Below, piece by piece: positions 10,554 through 54,786 of a stretch of DNA of 64,000 nucleotides. The DNA is from Bdellovibrio sp. 22V (lineage in GTDB: Bacteria > Bdellovibrionota > Bdellovibrionia > Bdellovibrionales > Bdellovibrionaceae): assembly GCF_030169785.1 (NCBI RefSeq), contig NZ_CP125854.1, positions 2,232,001 through 2,296,000 on the forward strand, in the 5' to 3' direction. The position numbers and the translations under genes are program-made. The notes under the pieces are model-generated. The model saw only the letters and a program-made list of their open reading frames with translations. It had not been told where the DNA came from and did not search any database. Position 1 is the stretch's first letter, and each line of letters opens with the position of its first letter.

Positions 10554-10566
10554 ACCACAGTCTGAC

Positions 10567-10593
10567 TCAAGTTGAGACAGTTTCGGCCGATAA
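10567..10593 (+). promoter_or_regulatory. Sigma-28-type promoter
   Basis: TCAAGTTG, 11 bases, then GCCGATAA: an exact -10 and 6 of 8 at -35 compared with the enterobacterial FliA consensus TAAAGTTT-N11-GCCGATAA. The -10 ends 7 bases before the ATG at 10601, so the transcript would begin at or next to the start codon. A matching promoter lies at 53458-53484. Confidence 0.5.
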
Positions 10594-10600
10594 GAGGAGT

Positions 10601-10831
10601 ATGGAAAATGCTCTTCTTAGTATTTTATCGGTGATTTTGTTCTGCGCTTGCTGCCATCAGTTTATCAAAACAGTGGTAACGCCCATCCCGCTTCTCGCAA
10701 CAGAGCGTCGTTATGCGCGTGCGGCTATGCAGCTTGGCAAGTTCTATAAATCCATCGCGTGGGGCACGATGACGGCGACATTCCTCATCGGTCTTGTCTT
10801 TTCGTTCCAGCAAGTTTTCACGCAAATCTAG
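10601..10831 (+). CDS. Small two-span membrane protein
   Basis: A 76-residue protein with hydrophobic segments at about 5-27 and 53-72 and a basic middle (ERRYARAAMQLGKFYKS), so probably both ends on the same side of the inner membrane. No family is recognised. GAGGAG ends only one base before the ATG, too close for a normal ribosome-binding site; together with the sigma-28-type promoter this suggests a leaderless start or a start misplaced by a few codons. Confidence 0.6.
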   Translation: MENALLSILSVILFCACCHQFIKTVVTPIPLLATERRYARAAMQLGKFYKSIAWGTMTATFLIGLVFSFQQVFTQI

Positions 10832-53027: not shown

Positions 53028-53120
53028 ATGTCCATGCGCGAAGCGTTCACAATCAGCTTTAAGTTTTTCTTTGTCGGCCTCTTGGTGTTTGGGGCCCTCT
53101 TTGCGCACTTCTAAAGTAAT
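53028..53120 (+). CDS. Possible 30-residue membrane peptide
   Basis: ATG at 53028 opens MSMREAFTISFKFFFVGLLV and continues with a hydrophobic helix to ALLK. A purine-rich GAAGAGAAG lies upstream and a strong terminator follows 14 bases after the stop, which argues for a real transcription unit. No family known. Confidence 0.35.
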
Positions 53121-53133
53121 ACTTTAAAAAGAA

Positions 53134-53159
53134 AAAGGCCGGGGAATGCCGGCCTTTTG
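53134..53159. terminator. Intrinsic terminator
   Basis: AAAAGGCCGG-GGAATG-CCGGCCTTTT: perfect 10-bp stem and a 6-base loop, A/T-runs on both sides. It lies between the small plus-strand frame and the converging small Cys protein. Confidence 0.8.
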
Positions 53160-53184: not shown

Positions 53185-53403
53185 TTAAGCGGCTTTTTTA
53201 GCTACGTAATGATAGTACTTTTTGTCGAAGTCCGATGCCTTCATACCATCTTTCGTAATCAAACCCGCCTTAAACCAATCAAAGTGCTCGGCACAGAAGC
53301 CGGCCTTTTCTGATTTCTTTTTGCAGCCTTCCCCGCAGCAGCGAGCAGACTCTAAAGAAACAACATTGTTCGGGATTTGTTTTTCGAATTTTTTGTCAGC
53401 CAT
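53185..53403 (-). CDS. Small Cys-containing protein under a sigma-28-type promoter
   Basis: A 72-residue soluble protein; ESARCCGEGCKKKSEKAGFCAEHFDWF gives four cysteines and a histidine that may bind zinc. The C-terminus (KYYHYVAKKAA) is aromatic and basic. GGGGGTC precedes the ATG. A good sigma-28-type promoter lies 55 bases upstream, so it may belong to the motility or attack-phase set. Function unknown. Confidence 0.72.
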   Translation of the reverse strand: MADKKFEKQIPNNVVSLESARCCGEGCKKKSEKAGFCAEHFDWFKAGLITKDGMKASDFDKKYYHYVAKKAA

Positions 53404-53457
53404 TAAGTGACCCCCAGTTGAAATCTTAAGCTGGTTGAATGTCTTAAGACATAAGAC

Positions 53458-53484
53458 TTATCGGCGACGCAAAATCTTACTTGA
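53458..53484 (-). promoter_or_regulatory. Sigma-28-type promoter
   Basis: On the minus strand TCAAGTAA, 11 bases, GCCGATAA: exact -10 and the same TCAAGT -35 as at 10567. Expected transcript start near 53451, giving a leader of about 48 bases to the ATG at 53403. The palindrome GTCTTAAGAC (53441-53450) would lie at the transcript start. Confidence 0.6.
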
Positions 53485-53557
53485 GGACTTCGAAAGAAAC
53501 TCGGGTTGAGTTTCATGTATCTCAAAATGAAACGGTATTAAACAAATTAAGCGGATG

Positions 53558-53584
53558 GGGAAAAGGTACTAGGTACCTTTTTCC
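53558..53584. repeat. Dispersed palindromic repeat, copy 3
   Basis: GGGAAAAGGTACT and GGTACCTTTTTCC, 13-base arms with two mismatches around a central A. It abuts the stop codon of the cNMP-EAL gene and can act as its terminator. Confidence 0.65.
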
Positions 53585-54786
53585 TAGATGAGCTTGAGGA
53601 ATCGGCCCATGTCGACGGGCTTTGAGAACAAATAGCCTTGGCCAAAACGAGCGCCCAGGGTTTCAAGAACTAGGCATTCTTCGTTATTTTCGATGCCCTC
53701 GGCGATGATCTCGATGTCCATGGCGTGCGCCAAGTGGATGATCGAACTGACGACCGCTTTGGATTTGGGATCGTTTAAAACTTTCATGACGAAAGAGCGA
53801 TCGATCTTCAAAAAGCTGATCGGCATTTGCGTCAGATACTGCAAACTGGAAAAGCCCGTTCCGAAGTCATCGATAGAGATGGCATATCCTTGATTGCGAC
53901 ACTGGTTTAACGCCTCCAAAGCAATCGCACCATCCATCATGATTCTTTCGGTCATTTCAAGTTTGATGTTTTTAGTTTGCAGATCGTGCTTTTCGCGCAG
54001 GTCTTCCAGATTGTTTACGAAATCAGAGTGCGTAAACTGACGGCCCGAAATATTGATACTCATCATGAAGTCGTCAGCCATTTTATCTTTTTTATTCAAA
54101 CGCAATTGATCTTGAATCGTGCGCAAATCTTTTAAAGCCTGATTGATAATCCAGTGACCAATAGGAATGACCATCGAGGAGTTTTCAATCACGTCGATAA
54201 AAAGATTCGGGGATACCAAGCCGTGTAAGGGGCTGTTCCAGCGCAATAAAGCTTCGCAGCCTGTGATTTGTTTGGTCTTTAAATTCACGATCGGCTGGTA
54301 AAACAATTCGAATTCTTTATTCTGAAACGCTTGAAAGATCTGATTTTCAAGTTTGATCTGATCTAAAGCGCTTTGCGTTCCGTCGTCTCCGGCGCCGGAG
54401 TTGTCGAACTCCACGTCAGCGATCTTTGTGCCGCCGGGGGTGTTGATGTTTTTACGGCGCAAACGTTTTAAAAGAACACGCATCAAAAGTTGCACGACTT
54501 TATCGGCGGTAGAGACACGTTCAAGAACTTGCTGTTTCGTGACGATAGCTAAACGAACATCTTCCAACGCGCGCACGGAGGCAGAGCGGTTTTGATTGTC
54601 GATCAAAGCCATCTCGCCAAAGATTTCACCTTCGCCGAGAATTGTCAGAGGAATTTCTTCTTTGTCTTTGCTGATGTAAATCAGCACTCGGCCTTTTTCG
54701 ATGATATAGGCGCAGTCACCTGCGTCGCCTTCGCTGAAAATGATCTGATCTTTATGTATCTCGACGGACTGAGTTGCTGAATTCAT
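53584..54786 (-). CDS. Cyclic-nucleotide-controlled c-di-GMP phosphodiesterase (cNMP-EAL)
   Basis: A 400-residue protein: cNMP-binding domain at about 5-115 (FSEGDAGDCAYII, GEIFGEMALI and the RSASVRA phosphate cassette) and EAL domain at about 150-400. The catalytic set looks complete: EALLRW, EMTE, DDFGTGFSS, KIDRSFV, AEGIE, GQGYLFSKP. It should hydrolyse c-di-GMP to pGpG under control of cAMP or cGMP. The same layout and length are known from B. bacteriovorus Bd1971, a cAMP-sensing phosphodiesterase; orthology is likely. Predicted cytoplasmic. Confidence 0.92.
   Translation of the reverse strand: MNSATQSVEIHKDQIIFSEGDAGDCAYIIEKGRVLIYISKDKEEIPLTILGEGEIFGEMALIDNQNRSASVRALEDVRLAIVTKQQVLERVSTADKVVQLLMRVLLKRLRRKNINTPGGTKIADVEFDNSGAGDDGTQSALDQIKLENQIFQAFQNKEFELFYQPIVNLKTKQITGCEALLRWNSPLHGLVSPNLFIDVIENSSMVIPIGHWIINQALKDLRTIQDQLRLNKKDKMADDFMMSINISGRQFTHSDFVNNLEDLREKHDLQTKNIKLEMTERIMMDGAIALEALNQCRNQGYAISIDDFGTGFSSLQYLTQMPISFLKIDRSFVMKVLNDPKSKAVVSSIIHLAHAMDIEIIAEGIENNEECLVLETLGARFGQGYLFSKPVDMGRFLKLI

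Follow-up and report, generated by a model that had tools for sequence, protein, structure and literature searches.

In E. coli, sigma-28 promoters have the form TAAAGTTT-N11-GCCGATAA, and to our knowledge most of them work without an activator. In Bdellovibrio bacteriovorus HD100, 92 of the 140 attack-phase promoters were described as carrying the consensus TTAAG-N16-CCGATA (Karunker et al. 2013, PMC3627812, available part), and FliA appears in the literature as the chief sigma factor of the attack phase. According to the available part of the same paper, a third of the attack-phase promoters lack a FliA motif, and their control and the co-factors of FliA were left open. The accessible text of PMC5430801 reports that deletion of fliA was not achieved in B. 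bacteriovorus, where a plain fliA mutant is not to be had, and that Bdellovibrio FliA activates the flagellin and flp1 promoters in E. coli. Here we describe a promoter of this type in Bdellovibrio sp. 22V, within a window of 64,000 nucleotides (NZ_CP125854.1, positions 2,232,001 to 2,296,000). Positions without a prefix are those of the window.

The promoter upstream of the 72-aa gene

53185..53403 (-), gene for a 72-aa C-C-C-H small protein of a class-specific family
53458..53465 (-), -10 element GCCGATAA, from sequence and CCGATAA conservation
53477..53484 (-), -35 element TCAAGTAA, from sequence and TNAAGT conservation

The sequence that had been predicted at 53458-53484 is present on the minus strand as TCAAGTAA-N11-GCCGATAA, about 55 nt upstream of the 72-aa gene, the ATG of which is located at 53403. 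Its -35 element reads TCAAGT(AA) from 53484 to 53477. A scan of the whole genome (3,601,631 bases, single contig) with the exact pattern TCAAGTNN-N11-GCCGATAA returned three sites, 53458 and 10567 of the window and C1:2966187, compared with none in the control. Within the window, TNAAG-N15-CCGATAA with at most one mismatch occurs six times (1.11 expected), and the N16 version, TNAAG-N16-CCGATAA, occurs once at the same tolerance (1.10 expected). Genome matches of TNAAG-Ng-CCGATA for g = 12 to 18 number 13, 4, 4, 18, 32, 8 and 9; the 88 matches stand against 38 in the control, which implies much chance background. Both N15 and N16 are enriched, and N16 is the commoner of the two. The spacing, which had been called exact, is so by the E. 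coli rule; it is not the N16 published for Bdellovibrio and more frequent in this genome. The predominance of N16 in the source genome agrees with the published consensus (PMC3627812, available part). N15 looks like a second spacing class beside N16.

The genus conserves both promoter elements, the distance between them and their placement before the gene, and the class Bdellovibrionia does so more loosely. The 72-aa gene is found in all 24 genus genomes, and in each of them a CCGATAA -10 element is located 54-63 nt before the start codon. TNAAGT at N15 was observed in 23 of the 24 orthologs, and the remaining one has TCAAG at N16, which suggests that the two spacings are exchangeable. The -35 element is TAAAG in 15 orthologs, TCAAG in five, TTAAG in three and shifted in one. 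Across the 24 rows, the -10 element is invariant, and the fraction of the commonest base is 0.92 in the -35 region, 0.59 in the spacer and 0.44 in the upstream DNA. More distant class homologs were taken from 28 loci, of which L290 and L300 (no pattern match) and L128 and L284 (duplicates) were dropped. A relaxed N15/N16 promoter lies within 160 nt of the gene in 20 of the 24 homologs retained and is absent before the other four. By spacing, N15 accounts for 15 and N16 for eight, and every other spacing from 10 to 21 gives 0-5.

This conservation is decisive for the claim that chance is an unlikely source of the motif. If TCAAGT and GCCGATAA had met here by accident, with the gene expressed from some other promoter, the background of loose FliA patterns noted above would be the natural explanation, but the promoter is kept in 24/24 genus and 20/24 distant orthologs, and a simple scan of the region gave no sigma-70-like site near the 72-aa gene. 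The conservation refutes such a coincidence, which we regard as extremely improbable. It is also improbable, though somewhat less so, that the promoter is real and is read by a different sigma factor that recognises a similar -10 element. Below its curated cut-off, the FliA model has three more matches in the genome, two of which have long sigma-like frames, yet only one gene exceeds the cut-off (C1:936176-936847, 281.8 bits vs 189.6), and the promoter activation by Bdellovibrio FliA in E. coli noted above (PMC5430801, accessible text) also speaks against another factor. The segment 53458-53484 is very probably the sigma-28 (FliA)-type promoter of the 72-aa gene. FliA would recognise it and start a short mRNA for the 72-aa zinc-finger-like protein, and the role of FliA suggests that the gene is on in the attack phase.

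As far as the sequence tells, this is a typical promoter of the Bdellovibrio FliA class. Compared with E. coli sigma-28 promoters, the -10 element GCCGATAA and the spacing are identical, and most orthologs here have TAAAG. Unlike the E. coli promoters, a palindrome is located upstream of or over the -35 element in many cases here. This kind of promoter is already known, because it matches the published Bdellovibrio FliA/attack-phase consensus (PMC3627812, available part). It resembles the FliA promoters of HD100 described there in its TNAAG -35 and CCGATA -10 elements and in the many uncharacterised genes downstream, and differs from them in its N15 instead of N16 spacing, its deeply conserved leader and its accompanying palindrome.

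Flagellin genes had been expected among the hits of a genome scan. The exact pattern is found at none of the seven flagellin-type loci, which formally goes against the expectation, but relaxed N15/N16 matches (CCGA fixed, at most two mismatches) lie upstream of five of them, with four at N15 and one at N16 versus one each at N14 and N18. Relaxed promoters also occur upstream of a TarH-domain chemoreceptor (N15), a Flp1-like pilin and other genes. Separately, a sigma-28-type N15 motif, TAAAGTCCTGCGTAAGTATTCCGATA, was observed at G000:C1:420643 (-), 46 nt upstream of a ClpP protease gene.

The palindrome GTCTCA-N3-TGAGAC

10564..10578 (+), palindrome GACTCAAGTTGAGAC, overlapping the -35 element of the 10567 promoter
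10567..10593 (+), second sigma-28-type promoter TCAAGTTGAGACAGTTTCGGCCGATAA, from exact pattern and conservation
10601..10831 (+), 76-aa gene, predicted leaderless or nearly leaderless mRNA
53519..53533 (-), degenerate palindrome copy with two mismatches, centre 62 nt upstream of the first C of the -10 element

The original prediction of a sigma-28-type promoter before a small Cys protein gene is borne out by the conservation in all 24 genus orthologs, and the proposal that genes of uncharacterised small proteins share this promoter class fits all three exact sites, which precede genes of 72, 76 and 68 aa and have conserved promoters. The 76-aa gene downstream of 10567 was found in 24/24 genus genomes, and its ATG starts at about the expected transcript start, hence the predicted leaderless or nearly leaderless mRNA. 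All 24 orthologs carry TCAAG, followed at N15/N16 by CCGA[T/A] in 22 and by CCGAC in two. The C1:2966187 promoter precedes the gene of a 68-aa Cys-containing protein. Its palindrome-embedded -35 element is kept by 15/15 close orthologs (14 with N15-CCGATAA, one with N16-CCGAAGA), and the six more distant matches of the gene search that were examined do not have a palindrome-embedded promoter.

The TCAAG of the -35 elements at 10567 and C1:2966187 is part of an inverted repeat, GTCTCAAGTTGAGAC. The idea that TCAAGT is a -35 signature common to 53458 and 10567 does not survive this comparison. In the 10567 promoter it makes up half of a conserved palindrome, and in that at 53458 it is a minority variant of TAAAGT, so the two promoters have it for different reasons.

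With at most one mismatch, GTCTCA-N3-TGAGAC occurs at 80 genome sites compared with 11 for the reversed control, and 15 of the sites are exact. The 24 genus genomes hold 346 exact copies versus four for the control (summed from the table), and exact copies were found in 129/143 class genomes. Context was examined at 71 of the 80 sites, 24 of them within ORFs of 120 aa or longer. A search reaching 200 nt from each of the 71 palindromes gave 10 promoter motifs (at most one mismatch) at N15 and 13 at N16, compared with 0-3 for any one of ten other spacings; two sites contribute to both the N15 and the N16 count, and the two discovery sites are included. Of the 23 N15/N16 promoters, 21 are located downstream of the palindrome or overlap it. 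Around 57 exact palindromes in six other genomes, picked from the listed class-wide matches, 12 N15/N16 promoters were observed versus 13 over the ten other spacings together, and all 12 are downstream of or overlap the palindrome. For most palindromes, no FliA promoter could be recognised in the vicinity.

Upstream of the 72-aa gene, 20/24 orthologs carry one palindrome copy with at most two mismatches (one control match), and the other four have no copy at this tolerance. Measured from the first C of the -10 element, the palindrome centre lies 40-75 nt upstream in 19 orthologs and 145 nt upstream in one. A looser palindrome (at most three mismatches; two control matches) was found in 12/24 distant homologs. 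The distances in the orthologs cluster at -40, -50/51, -62 to -64 and -74/75, with -55, -59 and -145 off phase. This is suggestive of helical phasing, which is not visible at the other palindrome sites, and we do not claim it.

A 15-bp sequence with two-fold symmetry fits a dimeric factor, and such a factor probably does bind the palindrome. The putative dimeric transcription factor would bind GTCTCA-N3-TGAGAC and tune the 72-aa gene along with many FliA-type promoters, acting from upstream like an activator or over the -35 element like a repressor, as at 10567. The arrangement of the sites suggests activation where the palindrome is upstream and repression where it overlaps the -35 element. 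The palindrome is apparently an undescribed, class-wide DNA control motif. No description of GTCTCA-N3-TGAGAC was found in a literature search made partly by titles and covering few subscription journals, and the available parts of PMC3627812, PMC5430801 and PMC12622784 do not describe it. The promoter belongs to a known regulon, and what it uncovers, the palindrome, matters more than the promoter itself. At FliA-type promoters, the palindrome would be a specific bait for finding an attack-phase regulator.

Several individual palindromes were recorded. The one at G000:C1:2766264-2766278 (L220) lies 85 nt before a TIGR02147-family gene, possibly encoding a self-regulating factor; this is the sole candidate regulator noted, and a weak one. 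A long ORF other than fliA holds an exact copy at G000:C1:935898-935912, about 200 nt before the fliA frame. Five palindromes (G000:C1 539954, 543409, 2302238, 2415203 and 2994840) precede genes whose products have a signal-peptide-like start with TYQGRI, and we presume that these may be Mosaic Adhesive Trimer fibre proteins. Signal-peptide-like starts occur downstream of palindromes in 28/50 cases compared with 19/56 window genes (p 0.03), which is a hint at most given the crude rule used.

The leader and the reading of the repeats

53423..53450 (-), possible 5' hairpin, GUCUUAAG (53450-53443), 12-nt loop and CUUAAGAU (53430-53423), from conservation and folding
53440..53451 (-), 12-bp palindrome TGTCTTAAGACA in the leader, alternatively read as a DNA operator
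53450..53451 (-), predicted transcript start, from usual sigma-28 geometry

The transcript of the 72-aa gene would begin near T53451/G53450, for which there is moderate support, and continue into a conserved leader. The TG at the predicted start is invariant in 24/24 orthologs, and in most of the 24 rows the leader reads TGTCTTAAGACANTNAACCAGCTTAAGA. Mean pairwise identity over the stretch 7-36 nt downstream of the first C of the -10 element is 0.87, compared with 0.56 at third codon positions. Two CTTAAG boxes in the leader can pair over 8 bp, including one G-U, around a 12-nt loop, and the first pair would involve the first or second base of the predicted transcript. For 34-nt leaders, z is -1.6 or lower in 7/8 genus representatives, and the mean of the eight is -2.11; L049 lacks the hairpin and has a z of +0.67. 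The pairs hardly vary within the genus, so covariation is absent there. At the class level, where the sequences differ, leaders fold better than controls (mean z -0.92 vs -0.14, p 0.0105). This set comprises 19 of the 24 homologs, hand-chosen and including L286, which has a weak promoter outside the 20/24 count. The control comprises 25 of 50 N15/N16 sites that have an ORF no more than 90 nt downstream, enough sequence and no covering ORF of at least 150 aa, with the studied site excluded. Five full-length leaders fold no better than shuffles, and an Rfam search of the promoter/gene region gave nothing near the gathering score.

The mRNA of E. coli ompA has a 5'-terminal stem-loop. Like it, the predicted hairpin would sit in a short leader, at or directly beside the first base of the transcript. 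Unlike ompA-type stabilisers, which do not need it, the sequence here is almost invariant in the genus, and both the start and the hairpin are predictions. If formed, a 5'-terminal hairpin from the leader inverted repeat could slow decay of the mRNA in a non-growing swimming cell.

Neither the leader nor the upstream palindrome has a single possible reading. The chances that the leader acts as an RNA hairpin appear to us evenly balanced. It could also be a DNA operator, formed by TGTCTTAAGACA at the transcript start and the second CTTAAG box, a reading to which we give appreciable weight, somewhat short of even, as each box is itself palindromic, is nearly invariant in the 24 rows and keeps a fixed distance from the -10 element; the class-level folding argues in the opposite direction, since leaders of the class differ in sequence and still tend to fold at this position more than control leaders do. 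A minority reading that retains some credit takes the upstream palindrome as an operator or DNA feature of general use, not specially linked to FliA promoters. It accords with the many sites that have no clear FliA promoter nearby, the 24/71 inside ORFs of at least 120 aa and some sigma-54-like matches in the vicinity, an equivocal signal (17 at the right spacing, 6-7 at most others and 15 at one wrong spacing). It does not account for the enrichment of N15 and N16 alone near the palindrome, nor for the placement of the promoters downstream of or overlapping it (21/23, and 12/12 in other genomes).

With the palindrome read as the site of a factor and the leader as a hairpin, a joint picture can be drawn in which one class-wide factor works with sigma-28, activating from upstream and blocking over the -35 element, and a class-wide 5' hairpin sits on the zinc-finger mRNA; we hold this whole picture tentatively, at slightly less than an even chance. 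If it is true, FliA and the palindrome factor would together set the attack-phase programme, with surface-protein promoters among the targets. A literature search by titles, among the matches listed and with few subscription journals covered, returned no description of the conserved leader, and none is given in the available parts of PMC3627812, PMC5430801 and PMC12622784. The leader palindrome TGTCTTAAGACA was also considered as the operator of a regulon and rejected, as it is not enriched genome-wide (eight sites with at most one mismatch vs seven in the control).

The 72-aa protein and its neighbourhood

53133..53158 (-), terminator-like hairpin after the 72-aa gene (two in the region vs 1.0 expected)
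53584..54786 (-), upstream gene, Bd1971 ortholog (cNMP-binding + EAL)

The 72-aa family was found in 98/143 genomes of the class Bdellovibrionia and 50/68 genera, and it is absent from all 14 genomes of genus g17 (G044-G057). In 31 aligned members, C22, C27, C37, H40 and the W43-F44-K45 run are invariant, and this C-C-C-H ligand set is that of a zinc-binding small protein, as judged from the predicted ligands. The protein of the window matches no Pfam or NCBIfam model. Membership in Zf_WRKY19 (PF24906) was considered and rejected, because the window protein is unmatched and four of the 31 members match weakly (best E 3.8e-4). The family shares with the WRKY19-type zinc finger a C-x4-C followed by C-x2-H, and differs in that 27/31 members, including the window protein, do not match the model. 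A structure model of the 72-aa protein is of modest confidence (mean pLDDT 68.6), and sequence and structure searches gave no convincing PDB match for the family. Our best guess is that the protein is a small zinc finger with a role in attack-phase cells. Lineage-wide and placed under a FliA-type promoter, this zinc-finger-like protein would be a plain knock-out target.

The gene upstream is the ortholog of Bd1971, a cAMP-sensing c-di-GMP phosphodiesterase whose expression reportedly spans the whole predatory cycle (PMC6717892, available part). On the other side, a 28-codon ORF, MSMREAFTISFKFFFVGLLVFGALFAHF, at window positions 53028-53114 (+) is convergent with the 72-aa gene and possibly encodes a membrane microprotein. 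A similar frame was observed at 24/24 genus loci (L045-L068), with 40-75% identity outside its own genome.
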